Part shown: positions 11,452 through 27,750 of the stretch, piece by piece
Position numbering within the stretch: the first letter of the stretch is position 1
Layout: every line of letters begins with the position of its first letter
From: a virus
IMG/VR virus record: IMGVR_UViG_3300049008_000029
Span: 1 to 38,667 of that record
Reading direction: 5' to 3' (one strand)
Length of the DNA stretch: 38,667 nucleotides
The notes under the pieces: model-generated
What the model was told of the DNA's origin: nothing
Database searches by the model: none
What the model saw: only the letters and a program-made list of their open reading frames with translations
Made by a program: the position numbers and the translations under genes

Positions 11452-11822
11452 ATAGCGCAATCGCTGATCTTGCCGAAACGGTCATCACCCGCATTTGGCC
11501 TGATAAATCTGAGGCAGAAAAGCAACAACTCGCCGCTGCGGTTCAACTGGTGCAAGGCCAGATGGATATCAACAAAGCTGAAGCTGCCTCCGGCTCAGTC
11601 TTTATCGGCGGCTGGCGTCCAGCGATTGGCTGGGTCTGCGCTGCCGCCCTGGCGTGTCAGTACATCGCTCGGCCCCTGCTGGTCTGGGCAGGCATCATTA
11701 CCGGCCACAATTGGCCCGTACTACCTGGGCTTGATGACAACCTCTGGCAACTCATGCTGGGCATGCTGGGCATGGGTGGCCTGCGTACTGTTGAGAAGGT
11801 CAAGGGCGTTGCATCGTCCTGA
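11442..11822 (+). CDS. Holin of the GTA 3TM type (126 aa)
   Basis: The sequence RPAIGWVCAAALACQYIARPLL followed by GLDDNLWQLMLGMLGMGGLRTVEK matches the layout of the three-transmembrane holin family found in gene transfer agents and many phages, in which a final helix ends in a conserved Gly-Leu-Arg-Thr-x-Glu-Lys. An N-terminal amphipathic helix precedes the membrane segments. It should permeabilise the inner membrane and let the adjacent lysozyme reach the wall. Its stop overlaps the next start (TGATG). Confidence 0.85.
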   Translation: MAIDSAIADLAETVITRIWPDKSEAEKQQLAAAVQLVQGQMDINKAEAASGSVFIGGWRPAIGWVCAAALACQYIARPLLVWAGIITGHNWPVLPGLDDNLWQLMLGMLGMGGLRTVEKVKGVASS

Positions 11823-19802: not shown

Positions 19803-19982
19803 GTGAAAACAGAAGAAGCGATTGCCCACTACGGCGGCTTGAAGAAGCTTGCCGATGCCCTCGGGGTCTGGCCCCAAGTGATCTATGCCTGGGGAGCCTA
19901 TCCCCCTATGTCAAGACAGTACGAACTCGAAGTCAAAACAGCAGGATCACTGAAGGCAGAGCGCGATGATAAGCAAGATTGA
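19803..19982 (+). CDS. cro: P22 Cro-like repressor (59 aa, GTG start)
   Basis: A small helix-turn-helix protein of the P22 Cro family. The sequence IAHYGGLKKLADALGVWPQVIYAWG supplies the HTH and the C-terminus LEVKTAGSLK is very close to the LEIVTAGALK end of P22 Cro. The GTG start follows GGAATAAA. It should bind the divergent promoter region and shut down early transcription. It overlaps the primase gene by 17 bases. No CI-type repressor gene is found next to it or elsewhere in the window. Confidence 0.88.
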   Translation: MKTEEAIAHYGGLKKLADALGVWPQVIYAWGAYPPMSRQYELEVKTAGSLKAERDDKQD

Positions 19983-21852
19983 AGCAGCACTTACTTACGC
20001 ATCCTGGGGATGGCATGTTATCCCAGTCGTGCCAAATGGCAAGATCCCCGCTACCCAGCACGGTGTACGGGACGCCACTGTAGATGCCGAGCAGATAGCC
20101 CGGTGGTGGCACCAGAACCCAGACTACAACATTGGCATTGCGGCAGGGGCCATCTCGGGCATCATGGTGTTCGACATTGACCCGAGGAACGGTGGCGATA
20201 CGTCTTGGGATGAATGGACAAGCCAGTACGGCAGCGTCCCGGATGGGCCTATGCAACTCACCGCGGGCGGCGGGCAGCACCACATTGCAGTCAATGACGC
20301 AGAGATTAGGTCTTGCAAGCTTATCGACGGCGTAGACCTGTTGGCCGATGGCCGCTATTTTGTTGCCCATCCTTCGACTATCGAGGGCCGGTCATATGAG
20401 TGGGAGGCCTCGTCAGACCCAAGTGACGGCATCGCACCGTTTCGCATGCCCACGCAGTGGAAGGATGCCTATACGGTCAAGCGCAAGCCAACCAATGCAG
20501 TCCAGGCTACCGGGTCGAACTTGATCCAAGGTGGGCGCAACAATGGCTTGACTGCGCTCGGCGGGGCCATGCGGCGCTACGGCATGACCGAGGCAGAAAT
20601 CCTGGCAGCACTTGCTGTAGCGAATGAGACACGCTGCGAGATTCCGCTGCCATCGTCTGAGCTATCCCAGATTGTCCGGTCTGTCTGCCGGTATGAGCCT
20701 GAGAGCGACATCGCTGCGGACACAAGCATGGGGTCAGAAGCCGCTGAAGCGTTGCTGTCAGCAGTGAAGGCGTCGACACAGGATTATTTCTTCACCCGCG
20801 CAACGTCTTATTTGAGCCAGCCAGCACCGCTGAAGTGGATCATCAAAGGGTGGCTCCCCGATAGCTCGACAAGCATGGTTTACGGCGAGTCAGGCGTTGG
20901 TAAGACGTTTGTCACGCTCGACATGGCTTGCCACATCGCCGCAGGGATGCCTTGGCATGGACACAAGACCAAAGCGGGAATCGTGGTCTACATGGCCGGC
21001 GAGGGCAACTACGGTATCCGTCAGCGGGTCGCCGCATGGTGCAAGCATCACGACATCAATAGCCTAGATAACTTGCTCATCAGCAACAAGGCCATCGATG
21101 CCGACAACCCTGCCGCTGCCGCTCAGATACTGAATGCAGTCCATGAGATCACGACCGAGGAAGCGGTGGTCATCTTCATTGACACGGTGAATAACCACAT
21201 GTCAGGCGATGAGAATTCCGCAAAGGACACGCGAAACATGTTCAACGCCTGCAACATCGTCGCCAGGGCGCTCAATGCCGCTGTCTGCCTCAATCACCAT
21301 TCCGGCCATGCGGTGGACAGCAAGCAGCGGGCGCGAGGCTCAAGCGCTTGGAAGGCCAGCCTTGATGCGTCGATCTTGATCAACAAGCTGGACGGGTGTA
21401 TCGAGATTGTCTGCACCAAGATGAAGGACACAGAGGAGCCAACCCCCTTCTTCGGCAAGCTCACCTCGGTGCCACTTGGTTGGTTCGATGAGGACGGCGA
21501 GGAGATCAACGGGGCAGTCTTTGAGATCGAGGAGAACCCACCGGAGAGGCAGGAGAAGAAGGGCAAGGATCAATCCAAGAACATCCAAGACTTGGTTTCA
21601 GCTTGGTTTGCGTCCGGTTCTGAGGATCAAAACGATTCTCCATACATAACAAGGGATGCCCTGATTTCCTATTTTATTTCGAGTAAGGGATTATCAGAAG
21701 GCACCTCTAAATTCTATGCTCAACCTGGGTCAAAGGGTAAGTTTATATATAACCTACTGGAGGCAGAGATAATACAGGCGCACGACAAAGGGTGGCTGGT
21801 GGTGGAAGCGGCTACAGCGGCCTCGATGATGATGAGAAGGTCATCGAAGTAG
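19966..21852 (+). CDS. Prim-Pol / RepA-like helicase replication protein (628 aa)
   Basis: A bifunctional replication protein. Residues 1-165 form an archaeo-eukaryotic-type primase-polymerase domain: FDIDPRNGG gives the D-x-D metal site and GGGQHHIAV the second motif. A helical primase C-terminal segment follows (about 180-245). Residues 280-520 form a RecA-type helicase: Walker A GESGVGKT, Walker B VVIFIDTVN, and a SRGSS-like sensor in QRARGSSAWK. The gene starts inside cro with AAGG upstream of ATG, so it is co-transcribed with cro. By family it primes and unwinds at the phage origin, probably at the iterons directly downstream. Confidence 0.92.
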   Translation: MISKIEAALTYASWGWHVIPVVPNGKIPATQHGVRDATVDAEQIARWWHQNPDYNIGIAAGAISGIMVFDIDPRNGGDTSWDEWTSQYGSVPDGPMQLTAGGGQHHIAVNDAEIRSCKLIDGVDLLADGRYFVAHPSTIEGRSYEWEASSDPSDGIAPFRMPTQWKDAYTVKRKPTNAVQATGSNLIQGGRNNGLTALGGAMRRYGMTEAEILAALAVANETRCEIPLPSSELSQIVRSVCRYEPESDIAADTSMGSEAAEALLSAVKASTQDYFFTRATSYLSQPAPLKWIIKGWLPDSSTSMVYGESGVGKTFVTLDMACHIAAGMPWHGHKTKAGIVVYMAGEGNYGIRQRVAAWCKHHDINSLDNLLISNKAIDADNPAAAAQILNAVHEITTEEAVVIFIDTVNNHMSGDENSAKDTRNMFNACNIVARALNAAVCLNHHSGHAVDSKQRARGSSAWKASLDASILINKLDGCIEIVCTKMKDTEEPTPFFGKLTSVPLGWFDEDGEEINGAVFEIEENPPERQEKKGKDQSKNIQDLVSAWFASGSEDQNDSPYITRDALISYFISSKGLSEGTSKFYAQPGSKGKFIYNLLEAEIIQAHDKGWLVVEAATAASMMMRRSSK

Positions 21853-21963
21853 ACGATACAAACGATACGGTACGATACAAACGATACAAACGTATTGTTT
21901 GACAAGGCGAGGGATGACGATATAAACGATACAACCCCTTTAGGGGTGTATCGTATTGTATCG
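21853..21963. other. Iteron cluster, candidate replication origin
   Basis: ACGATAC occurs at 21853, 21862, 21872, 21881 and 21926, with inverted copies at 21948-21954 and 21958-21963 (the last lacks its final base). The first four are spaced 9, 10 and 9 bases, close to one helical turn. Within the cluster, 21926-21954 forms a hairpin: ACGATACA (plus one bulged A) and CCCC pair with GGGG and TGTATCGT around the loop TTTA. It has no U-run, so it is not a simple terminator. Its place right after the replication gene supports an origin. Confidence 0.65.
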
Positions 21964-22380
21964 CCCGATGTGCCAGAATTTTGTGCTGGACTAGGGAAAA
22001 CCCTAGAAGGTGCCTTTTGAGGCCAAAAGCAGCTTTTTCTGTGACATGTAGCAGAAAACGGGGAAATAATATAATAATAGTTACTATATTAAAATAATAT
22101 TCTGCGATTCTAAGAATGGCCCGTGCATTTATTCTGGAATTCCCGGCCAAAAATATTGGCTTTTGGAAAAATATTCCGCCAGCCAAAAGTGATTATTTTT
22201 CCGAGCCAATTTTTTTTTTTGAATTGATTGGTGGTCTATAGGAGGGGGGGTGCTGAAAAAAAAGGTGTTTTTTGGGGGGTAAACCCCTAGACCCCGATTT
22301 CAGATTGACGATGATTGTCAGAATGCGATGGATTGTGGGGGGTCTGGATCGGGTCGGTTCCCCTATGACGATGCATTGCC
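21964..22380. other. A/T-rich, hairpin-rich non-coding region
   Basis: No gene is supported here. It contains the perfect hairpin CTAGGG-AAAA-CCCTAG at 21991-22006, a highly A/T-rich stretch at about 22062-22105, a CTTTTGG/CCAAAAG inverted repeat at about 22162-22187, a run of ten or more T at 22210-22220 and G runs near 22242-22250, 22274-22279 and 22337-22342. The A/T-rich segment could be the unwinding element of the adjacent origin. Confidence 0.6.
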
Positions 22381-22815
22381 CAGGCTGACCCAGGCCGGCC
22401 CTGGTTGACCCAGGTCGTCTCAGGCTGACCCAGGCCGGCCCTGGTTGACCCAGGTCGTCTCAGGCTGACCCAGGCCGGCCCTGGTTGACCCAGGCCGTCT
22501 CAGGCTGACCCAGGCCGGCCCTGGTTGACCCAGGACGTCTCAGGCTGACCCAGGCCGGCCCTGGTTGACCCAGGTCGTCTCAGGCTGACCCAGGCCGGCC
22601 CTGGTTGACCCAGGTCGTCTCAGGCTGACCCAGGCCGGCCCTGGTTGACCCAGGTCGTCTCAGGCTGACCCAGGCCGGCCCTGGTTGACCCAGGCCGTCT
22701 CAGGCTGACCCAGGCCGGCCCTGGTTGACCCAGGCCGTCTCAGGCTGACCCAGGCCGGCCCTGGTTGACCCAGGTCGTCTCAGGCTGGCCCAGGCTGGCC
22801 CAGGTCGTCCCAGGC
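22381..22815. repeat. Tandem array 1: ten copies of a 40-bp unit with 10-bp internal period
   Basis: Ten complete 40-base units start at 22381, 22421, and so on to 22741, followed by a degenerate partial unit to 22815. Each unit is made of four decamers, three of which begin CAGG and one CTGG. The only variation among the ten units that I can see is one base at position 34 of the unit (T in units 1, 2, 5, 6, 7, 10; C in 3, 8, 9; A in 4). Each unit contains an FseI site GGCCGGCC, a CCAGG/CCTGG short inverted repeat and a GACC-CA-GGTC inverted repeat. There are no spacers and no open gene. Confidence 0.98.
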
Positions 22816-24631: not shown

Positions 24632-24662
24632 CATTGTGACCAGTCACAATGGGCAATCTATA
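24632..24662 (-). promoter_or_regulatory. Cassette promoter with palindromic operator
   Basis: A near-perfect inverted repeat, CATTGTGAC-CA-GTCACAATG (24632-24651), lies just downstream of TATAGA read on the minus strand (24662-24657). A start near 24650 would place the operator over the first transcribed bases. The -35 is weak. Two copies of the palindrome CAATGCATTG (24627-24636 and 24685-24694) flank this site. Confidence 0.45.
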
Positions 24663-24714
24663 GGTGTTTACCCTAGGGTTGACGCAATGCATTGTTATTA
24701 GTGCGAGACCTGTC

Positions 24715-25035
24715 CAGGCAGCACCCAGGCAGCACCCAGGCAGCACCCAGGCAGCACCCAGGCAGACCCAGGCAGCATCCAGGCAGACCCAGGCAGCATC
24801 CAGGCAGCACCCAGGCAGACCCAGGCAGCATCCAGGCAGCATCCAGGCAGACCCAGGCAGCATCCAGGCAGCATCCAGGCAGACCCAGGCAGCATCCAGG
24901 CAGACCCAGGCAGCATCCAGGCAGCATCCAGGCAGCACCCAGGCAGACCCAGGCAGCATCCAGGCAGCATCCAGGCAGCATCCAGGCAGCATCCAGGCAG
25001 ACCCAGGCAGCATCCAGGCAGACCCAGGCAGCACC
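24715..25035. repeat. Tandem array 2: 30 CAGGCAG units of 10 or 11 bp
   Basis: Thirty uninterrupted units all beginning CAGGCAG: seven of the form CAGGCAGCACC, fourteen CAGGCAGCATC (both 11 bases) and nine CAGGCAGACC (10 bases), in a non-regular order. The last unit is followed by CTGGG, giving a small inverted end. The arrangement mirrors the CAGG decamers of array 1. Long stop-free frames cross the array on both strands only because the unit lacks stop codons. Confidence 0.98.
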
Positions 25036-25258
25036 CTGGGCACGCCCAAAATCAGCATCCCATGCCATACCCCATTTCCCACTTTGCCCCTCAAAAGCGC
25101 ATTAAAAGCCATCGACCGACCCCCAAAACGGTAAAAAAACCCACTTTTGACCCGATTTTGATCGTTTTAGAACTAAAATGATTCGGCGCCGTCTGAGAGC
25201 ACGCGCGGGGACAATTTCCCGCTATTCCTATCCCAGACCCTCCATTAACGGATGGGAG
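25036..25258. other. Non-coding gap between array 2 and the late operon
   Basis: No gene is supported. A/T-rich stretches near 25130-25185 contain TTGACC (25147) and TAAAAT (25174) but with about 20 bases between them, too far for a good promoter. A late promoter may lie here but cannot be pointed to with confidence. Confidence 0.5.
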
Positions 25259-25299
25259 TTGCACAAGTTGCACAAGTTGCACATGTGCATGTTGCACAA
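25259..25299. repeat. TTGCACA direct repeats with internal palindrome
   Basis: TTGCACA occurs at 25259, 25268, 25277 and 25292; the first three are spaced exactly 9 bases. Positions 25278-25289 form the perfect palindrome TGCACATGTGCA. The cluster lies immediately upstream of the HNH gene start and looks like a protein-binding site controlling the late operon or marking the packaging region. Confidence 0.75.
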
Positions 25300-25306
25300 T
25301 GACGGT

Positions 25307-25816
25307 ATGCCAAGCTTCCCAACCACCCAATGCGGCCAAACCCGGTGCAAAAACCCAGCGGCCAAGGGCAAATCGCTATGCGTCGAGCATGCCCCGACGA
25401 TTAAGCGCACCGAGGAACGTATCAAGGCGAACGCCAAATACAACAGTTCTGCCTGGGATTCGATACGTATGCGACAATTGTCCCTGTCGCCGCTTTGTCA
25501 GGCCTGTAAGCAGACCGGGCAAATTACCCTGGCGGCACATGTTGACCATGTCTTCCCGTGGCAGCATATTGGCCCTGCGGCATTTCGCAGGAACCTGTTT
25601 CAAAGCCTGTGCGCTAGGTGCCACGGGGTTAAGTCATCATATGAATTGAAGGGTATTTACCGGCATTACACCGATGCTGGTATCCTTGAATACAAGACAA
25701 CTGATTACCAAGGAGTCATCCATGCGTACACCACCGCGCCACATTATCCGGATACTGCAAGAACCAGATACCTGGAATCCGCAGACTTTCGAGACCGCAA
25801 TACGAAACGAAGTTGA
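25307..25816 (+). CDS. HNH endonuclease, packaging-associated (169 aa)
   Basis: An HNH nuclease with N-terminal Cys knuckles (CGQTRC and CVEH) and a full HNH core: CQAC at residues 64-67, HVDH at 78-81, Asn96, and CARCH at 102-106. In HK97-type phages an HNH protein next to the terminase is required for cos cleavage and packaging, so that role is expected here. I choose ATG 25307; the frame is open from 25178 and alternative ATGs at 25283 and 25289 cannot be excluded because no strong ribosome-binding site is present. The 3' end overlaps the small terminase gene by 95 bases. Confidence 0.9.
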   Translation: MPSFPTTQCGQTRCKNPAAKGKSLCVEHAPTIKRTEERIKANAKYNSSAWDSIRMRQLSLSPLCQACKQTGQITLAAHVDHVFPWQHIGPAAFRRNLFQSLCARCHGVKSSYELKGIYRHYTDAGILEYKTTDYQGVIHAYTTAPHYPDTARTRYLESADFRDRNTKRS

Positions 25817-26093
25817 GGGGACAACTGGCCCTCTCACGGCAAGCGACGAACTGCTGATTGCTATGCTAACCATGACGGTCGCCGCAATGGTCGAGGCACA
25901 CATTCATGTCCTTGAGAGTGGCCCGCTCTATACCTATGCTTCCGGCGACTCTATGTCGGCGTGGCACAAGATGCGTATTGAGTGCCTTGACAAGATTATC
26001 AAGATTCTTGCCGAATTGGCCCTAGTCGCCCGTGGGCGTCCGAAACTGACAGCAAAGCCGAGCAACGTCGATGAGCTATTCGCCACTGCTTGA
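25722..26093 (+). CDS. Terminase small subunit, P27-like (123 aa)
   Basis: Recognises the packaging site and recruits the large subunit. GGAG lies seven bases upstream of the ATG. Residues from about 38 on (PLTASDELLIAMLTM) through the long helices to LALVARGRPKL fit the P27-family small terminase, in which a DE-rich helical body ends in a Gly-x-x-P/R-like tail. It overlaps the HNH gene upstream and TerL by 23 bases. Confidence 0.8.
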   Translation: MRTPPRHIIRILQEPDTWNPQTFETAIRNEVEGTTGPLTASDELLIAMLTMTVAAMVEAHIHVLESGPLYTYASGDSMSAWHKMRIECLDKIIKILAELALVARGRPKLTAKPSNVDELFATA

Positions 26094-27750
26094 GCCTGCT
26101 TTTCAGTATGCCGCCAGCGTAGTCCGGGGCGACATACTGGCCTGTGAGGACATTGAGCTTGCCTGCCAGCGCTTTCTGGACATGGCTGAGCGTAAGGATG
26201 CGCCTTATGAGTTTGTACCGGCGAAGGCTGAACATATTCTCAAGTTCGTCAAGTTCACCCGGCATGTCAAAGGCCCAGACGCGGGTAAGCCCATCGATTT
26301 GCAGCCGTTCCAGGTTATGTTCTTGGCGGGCATCTATGGGTTTCGCGACAAGAAAGATCATACCCGGCGTTGGACGACTGATGTGATCTTGTTTGTGCCG
26401 CGCAAGTCAGGCAAGACGACCATCGCCTCAATCATTGCCCTTTACGAGTTGATGTTTGGGGACGCCGGGGCCGAGGTGTTTACCCTGGCGACTAACCGGG
26501 AGCAGGCCAGCATTTGCTTTGACTCGTCCAAGGCGATTGTGGAAAACATGGATTCGGCCTTGGCGGCGAAGTTCATGGTCTACCGGCATGAGCTAAAGAA
26601 GGCGGGTGATTCCACCTCGACCTACCGGGCGCTCTCGCGTGAGAACCGCAAGACAGGCGATGGCAAGAACCCTAGCTGCGCCTTGATTGATGAGGCCGCG
26701 CAGATTATCGAGCGCTCGAGCATTGAGGTGCTGCACTCTGGCATGGGCGCTCGGAAGAACCCGCTGCGGCTTTATCTGACAACTGCGTCCTTCACCAAGG
26801 AAACCAAGTTCTTTGAGGACTTGACGCATTTCCGCTCAGTCCTGCGTGGTGCCTCAGAAGATACCCACAAGTGGTTTGGCATGCTGTACAGCATCGACCC
26901 AGGCGACGAATGGTCGAACCCGGCAGTCTGGGGCAAGGCTAACCCTATGTTGGGCATATCGGTGACGACAGACCATATTCGGCATATGGCCGAGGAGGCC
27001 AGCGCGAAACCGGCAAGTCTGAATGAGTTTTTGTGCAAGCAGTTGAACATCTATGTCAGCGCCAATTCGGCCTGGGTGGATCGCCGGTATTGGGATGATG
27101 CCGCCTCAGAGATGCCTGATGAGCCACCGGAATCGGTATTCATTGGCTTCGACTTGGCGCATAGCCGGGACTTGAACGCTATCTGTACCCTGTTCCGCTA
27201 CGGCGAAGAAGAGTTCTTTGCAAAATTCATGTTCTTCCTGCCAGAAGAGTCAATGGCGCTGATTCCAAATCATTATCGGTCTACATATCTGCAAGCCAAG
27301 GAGACCGGCATTTTGCGGTTGACTCCTGGCAACGTCACTGATCTGAATGAGATTGAGAGCTACATTAAGCAGCAGTGCCAGCAATACGATGTCAAGGAGA
27401 TTGGCTTTGACCCGTACAACGCCGCCGCCTTGGTGGCTAATCTGTACGCTGAAGGCTTGCCGGTCAAGAAGGTAGGGCAGAGTATGGCTGTGCTGTCCAA
27501 CCCATCAAAAACGACAGAGCAGTTAATTCTGAAGAAGGCTATTCACCATGACGGGAACCCATTCATAGGATGGCAGCTAGGGAATTGCGAACTTTACACG
27601 GACGTAAATTCCAATGTCAAGGTTCGCAAGAATGAAGCAGACCCTTCTGCCAAGGTTGACGGTATCATCGCAATGATAATGGCGTTACACTGCCACCTAG
27701 ACAACGTGTTTGTCAGTGATTCGTGTGGTTTTAGAGCATTGGAGTGGTAA
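26071..27750 (+). CDS. Terminase large subunit (559 aa)
   Basis: The packaging motor ATPase and nuclease. Walker A VPRKSGKTT lies at residues 109-117 and Walker B CALIDEA at 203-209; the nuclease domain begins FIGFDLAHSRDL with Asp361 and Asp367. The layout fits the HK97-type Terminase_1 family. It overlaps the small subunit and is followed after three bases by the portal. Together with the adjacent HNH gene this suggests cos-type packaging, although the assembled redundancy alone does not show which mechanism is used. Confidence 0.95.
   Translation: MSYSPLLEPAFQYAASVVRGDILACEDIELACQRFLDMAERKDAPYEFVPAKAEHILKFVKFTRHVKGPDAGKPIDLQPFQVMFLAGIYGFRDKKDHTRRWTTDVILFVPRKSGKTTIASIIALYELMFGDAGAEVFTLATNREQASICFDSSKAIVENMDSALAAKFMVYRHELKKAGDSTSTYRALSRENRKTGDGKNPSCALIDEAAQIIERSSIEVLHSGMGARKNPLRLYLTTASFTKETKFFEDLTHFRSVLRGASEDTHKWFGMLYSIDPGDEWSNPAVWGKANPMLGISVTTDHIRHMAEEASAKPASLNEFLCKQLNIYVSANSAWVDRRYWDDAASEMPDEPPESVFIGFDLAHSRDLNAICTLFRYGEEEFFAKFMFFLPEESMALIPNHYRSTYLQAKETGILRLTPGNVTDLNEIESYIKQQCQQYDVKEIGFDPYNAAALVANLYAEGLPVKKVGQSMAVLSNPSKTTEQLILKKAIHHDGNPFIGWQLGNCELYTDVNSNVKVRKNEADPSAKVDGIIAMIMALHCHLDNVFVSDSCGFRALEW

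Follow-up and report, generated by a model that had tools for sequence, protein, structure and literature searches.

Why does a tailed phage carry thirty 10- and 11-base units head to tail in a gap close to its inferred cos, and does their order mean anything? The repeat, hereafter array 2, lies in a virus record of 38,667 bases (38.7 kb), all of which was analysed and is called the window. It represents a circular, complete tailed phage from environmental DNA. The record appears complete because joining its end to its start yields a single 987-codon open reading frame (ORF), apparently the tape-measure gene. The phage encodes an HK97-type large terminase (TerL), a portal, an HNH nuclease and a Prim-Pol/AAA_25 helicase-primase, together with a Sak4-like annealing protein and a Cas4-domain exonuclease. 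Among isolates, Methylophilaceae phage P19250A has the closest terminase, at 60% identity. The relevant features of the window are:

19966..21852, + strand: Prim-Pol / PriCT_1 / AAA_25 helicase-primase
21853..21971, no strand assigned: repeats of the region's own word, ACGATACAA, in both orientations and flanking a small hairpin, immediately downstream of the primase gene
22381..22814, + strand: array 1, 10.9 copies of a 40-bp unit
24656..24685, no strand assigned: operator-like sequence CTATAGGTGTTTACCCTAGGGTT, read by eye
24714..25036, + strand: array 2, 30 units in the order HHHHatatHattattatattHattttataH
24714..24757, + strand: uniform block of four CCAGGCAGCAC units at the start of array 2
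25158..25202, + strand: cos-left stretch with element TTTTAGAACTAAAA (TTTGAAACTAAAA in relatives), conserved beside cos, read by eye
25203..25210, + strand: inferred cos, GCGCGGGG, from the contig starts of relatives
25307..25816, + strand: HNH endonuclease, right of cos in the window and in contig L060, left of cos in most relatives
25722..26093, + strand: small terminase subunit (TerS), a weak PHROG 83 match whose homologues adjoin TerL in relatives
26071..27750, + strand: large terminase subunit, HK97 type (PHROG 9)

Anatomy of array 2

Each unit of array 2 consists of a CCAGGCAG core and a linker of 2–3 bases. The 30 cores, whose starts span 24714–25024, are invariant at 240 of 240 bases. 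Only two unit-level changes occur, a C-to-T substitution and a one-base deletion, both within the linker. The three forms are H (CCAGGCAGCAC, seven copies), t (CCAGGCAGCAT, 14 copies) and the 10-bp a (CCAGGCAGAC, nine copies). Tandem Repeats Finder scores the tract at 485 for period 11 and 503 for period 32, so it is not a product of chance. As in a minisatellite (VNTR), the copies are tandem and head to tail, the unit falls within 6–100 bp, and the sequence is non-coding or tolerant of indels.

A sequence-only reading of this DNA had described thirty units in three forms, with the CACC form at positions 1–4, 9, 21 and 30, and our analysis confirms both the count and the order. That reading also called the order not simply periodic; we find it to be irregular only in part. 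Compared with shuffled unit orders, a never follows itself (P = 0.034), and t comes after a in 8 of 9 cases (P = 0.004). These non-random neighbours are consistent with higher-order blocks of 21 bp (at) and 32 bp (att). The Lempel-Ziv complexity of the order was not significantly reduced (P = 0.065). Mixed unit lengths had further been proposed to alter helical phase. Over the whole array phase does drift (coherence 0.61 at 10.5 bp per turn), but locally, over up to 8 units, coherence is 0.92–0.99. This good local phasing follows from a mean unit of 10.7 bp, and the phasing of array 2 is nothing special beyond its ~10.7-bp units.

Two familiar identities were rejected from this anatomy. Because the units contain no stop codons, several frames of the tract remain open, on both strands, and ORFs are listed there; as a protein-coding repeat, however, it would shift frame with every copy, since neither 10 nor 11 bp is a multiple of three. 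A CRISPR array was rejected because the linkers are 2–3 bp long and come in three forms only, versus unique spacers of ~30 bp. Single-strand folding compared with shuffles gave z = +4.0 on the + strand of array 2 and z = +1.0 on the - strand, with no hairpin structure. The values for array 1 (z = −1.9 and −1.5) do not class it as a structured repeat either. A search of the window for known RNA families gained nothing further, and sigma-70 promoters were fewer than in shuffled sequence.

The inferred cos end

The contig ends of related phages point to the position of cos. The first base of the near-identical strain contig L010 corresponds to window 25210, directly after GCGCGGG, and L011, L014, L015 and L027 are among the other contigs that start after this motif. 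Among the best 80 TerL-related contigs from an IMG/VR terminase scan, about two dozen start at the base equivalent to 25210; a loose pattern match over their first seven bases counts 24. Where contigs from independent samples end at the same position, that position marks a physical end of the genome, and we therefore infer a cos cut at 25209/25210.

Given this cut, array 2 would end 173 bp left of cos, just within the linear genome's right end. It is non-coding, with small leftward genes to one side and the late operon to the other. The small gene to its left has no relative that we could find in viral contigs. In most relatives the gap that holds array 2 is occupied by the HNH gene, and relatives with an 82–85% identical TerL mostly have no comparable array in the equivalent gap. 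An GAAACTAAAA element ~40 bp left of cos is conserved among relatives, and CTATAGG..TTTnCCCTA-like sequences, read by eye, precede their HNH gene. The window resembles HK97 in its TerL family, in an HNH gene by the terminase genes and in the inferred cos.

Two smaller observations concern sequence right of the cut. The window carries three copies of a 9-bp repeat, AGTTGCACA (25257–25283), in the interval from cos to the HNH gene; the near-identical strain L010 lacks this repeat, a minor repeat change at strain level. In another contig, L070, an ORF that by eye resembles a C5 cytosine DNA methyltransferase stands right after a cos-like motif (4791) and before TerS.

Array 1 and the region after the primase gene

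The 40-bp unit of array 1 comprises four 10-bp CWGG units (CAGGCTGACC CAGGCCGGCC CTGGTTGACC CAGGTCGTCT), which run in unbroken 10-bp steps over nearly its whole length. Arrays 1 and 2 have the 9-mer GACCCAGGC in common on the same strand, and a genome-wide analysis of intergenic words found CCAGGC in the window to be concentrated at the two arrays. We then compared words of the array-1 tract with each phage's own cos-left non-coding region, using five genomes (L017 and L037 being related) and tracts picked by eye. The words occur at 12.3 per 100 bp at cos-left versus 0.9 elsewhere in the window, 18.4 versus 1.2 in L037, 6.6 versus 1.2 in L017 and, more weakly, 3.0 versus 0.5 in L038, whereas L060 shows no such pairing (1.3 versus 1.0). 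These densities are suggestive of one word common to both tracts within a phage.

Between phages the words differ. Contigs L017, L037, L038 and L060 have word-dense tracts with other words at a similar position, as judged by distance to cos and a preceding T-tract; no primase gene was found there. Across these four and three further genomes (G017, G029 and L246), repeats at the array-1 position use quite different words, as expected for a fast-turnover sequence class. The related L017 and L037 hold 20 and 19 CCTGCC words in ~250 bp, similar in length and scrambled in order and spacing. G017 and G029 carry CCCAGGC arrays directly after the primase gene; we rejected these as counterparts of array 2, for they correspond to array 1. 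By eye, a T-tract (8–12) and then G/T-rich sequence within tens of bases precedes the GC-rich tract in L017, L037, G017, G029 and L246.

The cluster directly after the primase gene uses yet another kind of word. In phages with a related primase (a set drawn from the window, L236–L262, G017 and G029), 28 of 29 over-represent a 7-base word within 200 bp downstream of this gene. This word is ACGATAC in the window and TGGGACA, GGTAACA, GGGGACA or others elsewhere. Forward and inverted copies are present in nearly all, and in the sequences read they bracket a small hairpin. The cluster at 21853–21971 is probably a replication origin with a phage-specific word. In pRN1 and phage BIP-1 the origin, a stem-loop, is thought to sit 3' of the replication gene (PMC4234260), and in the window, too, repeats lie beyond a Prim-Pol gene. 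That role fits 21853–21971 with its ACGATAC words, not array 2, which lies ~2.9 kb away. For this distance from the primase gene, and because it is missing in most relatives, array 2 was rejected as an iteron origin. A GC-skew origin signal was also sought in the window, and nothing further was gained.

Occurrence and competing explanations

Arrays of 10–11-bp units are a general feature of viral contigs. There, the CCAGGC core gave 39 matches and 19 arrays of at least 4.5 copies, versus 45 matches and 11 arrays for GGCACC, a control core of equal base composition; a particular enrichment of CCAGGC among viral 11-bp arrays was discarded as only mild. A scan of bacterial genomes (one per species, 84,980 species) returned no array, just five isolated matches on as many contigs from unrelated taxa, and we rejected a captured host repeat. 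At blastn sensitivity, array 2 had no match in isolate phages or plasmids. The window terminase occurred in none of the 80 best GP88 neighbour loci, within the stretches examined.

The same unit recurs in L090 and L091, two contigs of one unrelated phage type. They carry 16–17 copies of CCAGGCAGCAT/CCAGGCATCAT, an 11-bp unit, and a second array, of 19 bp, with CCCAGGTCGGC, which is similar to the window's CCCAGGTCGTC. Thus they share with the window an 11-mer unit and a second array with the CCCAGGTCGGC word, but their terminase and gene set are different and their variant base falls in the core. This likeness could stem from coincidence, from horizontal exchange or from a host factor in common, and a chance match is not negligible because the whole collection was searched for the word.

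The best-supported description of array 2 is a recent, lineage-specific minisatellite. We consider it probable, with moderate confidence, that this is a non-coding candidate VNTR by the inferred cos, produced by slippage or unequal recombination. Under the mechanism that we infer, a GC-rich word (CCAGGCAG plus a 2–3-base linker) would have multiplied into head-to-tail copies through replication slippage and unequal homologous recombination, probably aided by the phage's own Sak4-like annealing protein and Cas4-type exonuclease. Two linker variants would have arisen and then spread by duplication of 21- and 32-bp blocks, which would produce the apparent three-letter code. The expansion from several founders with internal duplication that the sequence-only reading envisaged fits this scheme, with two linker changes spread through at and att blocks. 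Its three-letter code, in contrast, is unsupported: nothing indicates information in the unit order, which presumably carries none. Invariant cores and a word common to array 1 count against pure slippage, which does not require such sharing, although recent expansion and copying between the arrays are compatible with it. Also against this reading, the same 11-mer occurs in an unrelated phage, for which coincidence is unlikely but not impossible.

A rather doubtful alternative makes arrays 1 and 2 a paired cis element, in which one phage or host binder would recognise a CCAGG word set about once per helical turn on both the origin side and the cos side, the word co-evolving with its binder. 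The ori and crr of P4 provide an analogue of such origin-side and second-site binding. This alternative draws on the 9-mer GACCCAGGC shared on the same strand, on the same-strand enrichment of array-1-region words at cos-left in the window, L037, L017 and L038, and on the 10- or 10.7-bp period, which locally holds words on one helical face. As a general proposition, which we put forward only tentatively and think unlikely, the group's phages would each have a pair of non-coding tracts, the first past the origin-like region and the second next to cos, both dense in one phage-specific GC-rich word; that word would turn over between phages while staying matched within each, and array 2 would be the cos-side member. 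A word matched within a phage yet changing between phages would imply that the tracts are actively copied from one another or share a trans-acting partner. However, copying between arrays or common ancestry, as in the related L017 and L037, could also explain the sharing, and the sample comprises five genomes with tracts chosen by eye. Moreover, L060 is unpaired, several genomes have an array at neither the array-1 nor the cos-side place, and the probable initiator sites form a cluster of their own with a different word, ACGATAC.

Proximity to the inferred cut, at 173–496 bp, could instead make array 2 part of the packaging signal, as a small-terminase binding array or a packaging enhancer. 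In L090/L091 the array of the same unit directly follows a gene that, by eye, may encode a small-terminase-like protein. We nevertheless find such a role quite improbable. The minimal site recognised by the HK97 small terminase lies at +15 to +29, downstream of the cut (PMC11331095), whereas array 2 is upstream of the inferred cut. In addition, relatives that have the same terminase package their genomes with no such array, and the sequence of array 2 is unconserved while the cut motif and the GAAACTAAAA element are conserved. An assembly artefact in copy number or order is very improbable for array 2. Near-identical strain contigs L010, L234 and L235 indeed reach neither array (L010 starts at cos, and L234 breaks off 136 bp past the primase), and a longest exact repeat of 154 bp makes the copy number of array 1 less certain. 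But in array 2 the longest exact repeat is 63 bp, so its order is resolvable by long k-mers of short reads, and same-unit arrays were assembled independently in two other contigs from other samples. Scarcely credible is a methylation or restriction decoy or a cluster of Dcm-type (CCWGG) targets. Of 139 CCWGG sites in the genome, 65 fall in arrays 1 and 2, with one in each unit of array 2, but the 74 sites outside the arrays (~37.9 kb) equal the random expectation of 74 (1 in 512), which shows no CCWGG avoidance and no sign of restriction pressure.

Array 2 thus looks unusual in detail and ordinary in kind. That its units resemble no recognised site, as had been said, was incomplete: CCAGG, which is a CCWGG site, occurs in all of them, and the mouse minisatellite Pc-1 has GGCAG as a repeat motif (cited in PMC2248197). 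Array 2 differs from Pc-1 by the extra CCAGG part, and neither motif need matter here. Acinetobacter phage AJO2 has a reported VNTR, one short stretch at 11671–11723 (PMC6401600). Both are short-unit tandem repeats in a phage genome, but array 2 has 30 units of two lengths and three forms, lies beside cos and shares words with a second array. Should array 2 prove ordinary, it offers a clear case of a phage minisatellite with variant repeats that is useful for typing strains, and it helps to explain why metagenomic assemblies of related phages may break close to the arrays. If the two tracts are truly paired, they would be an undescribed cis element that connects the origin end with the packaging end, in a group of phages common in metagenomes. 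Tandem arrays can also be numerous in one phage: G001 (L090/L091) has at least five different ones (11, 19, 20, 22 and 24 bp) in a single 22-kb contig.
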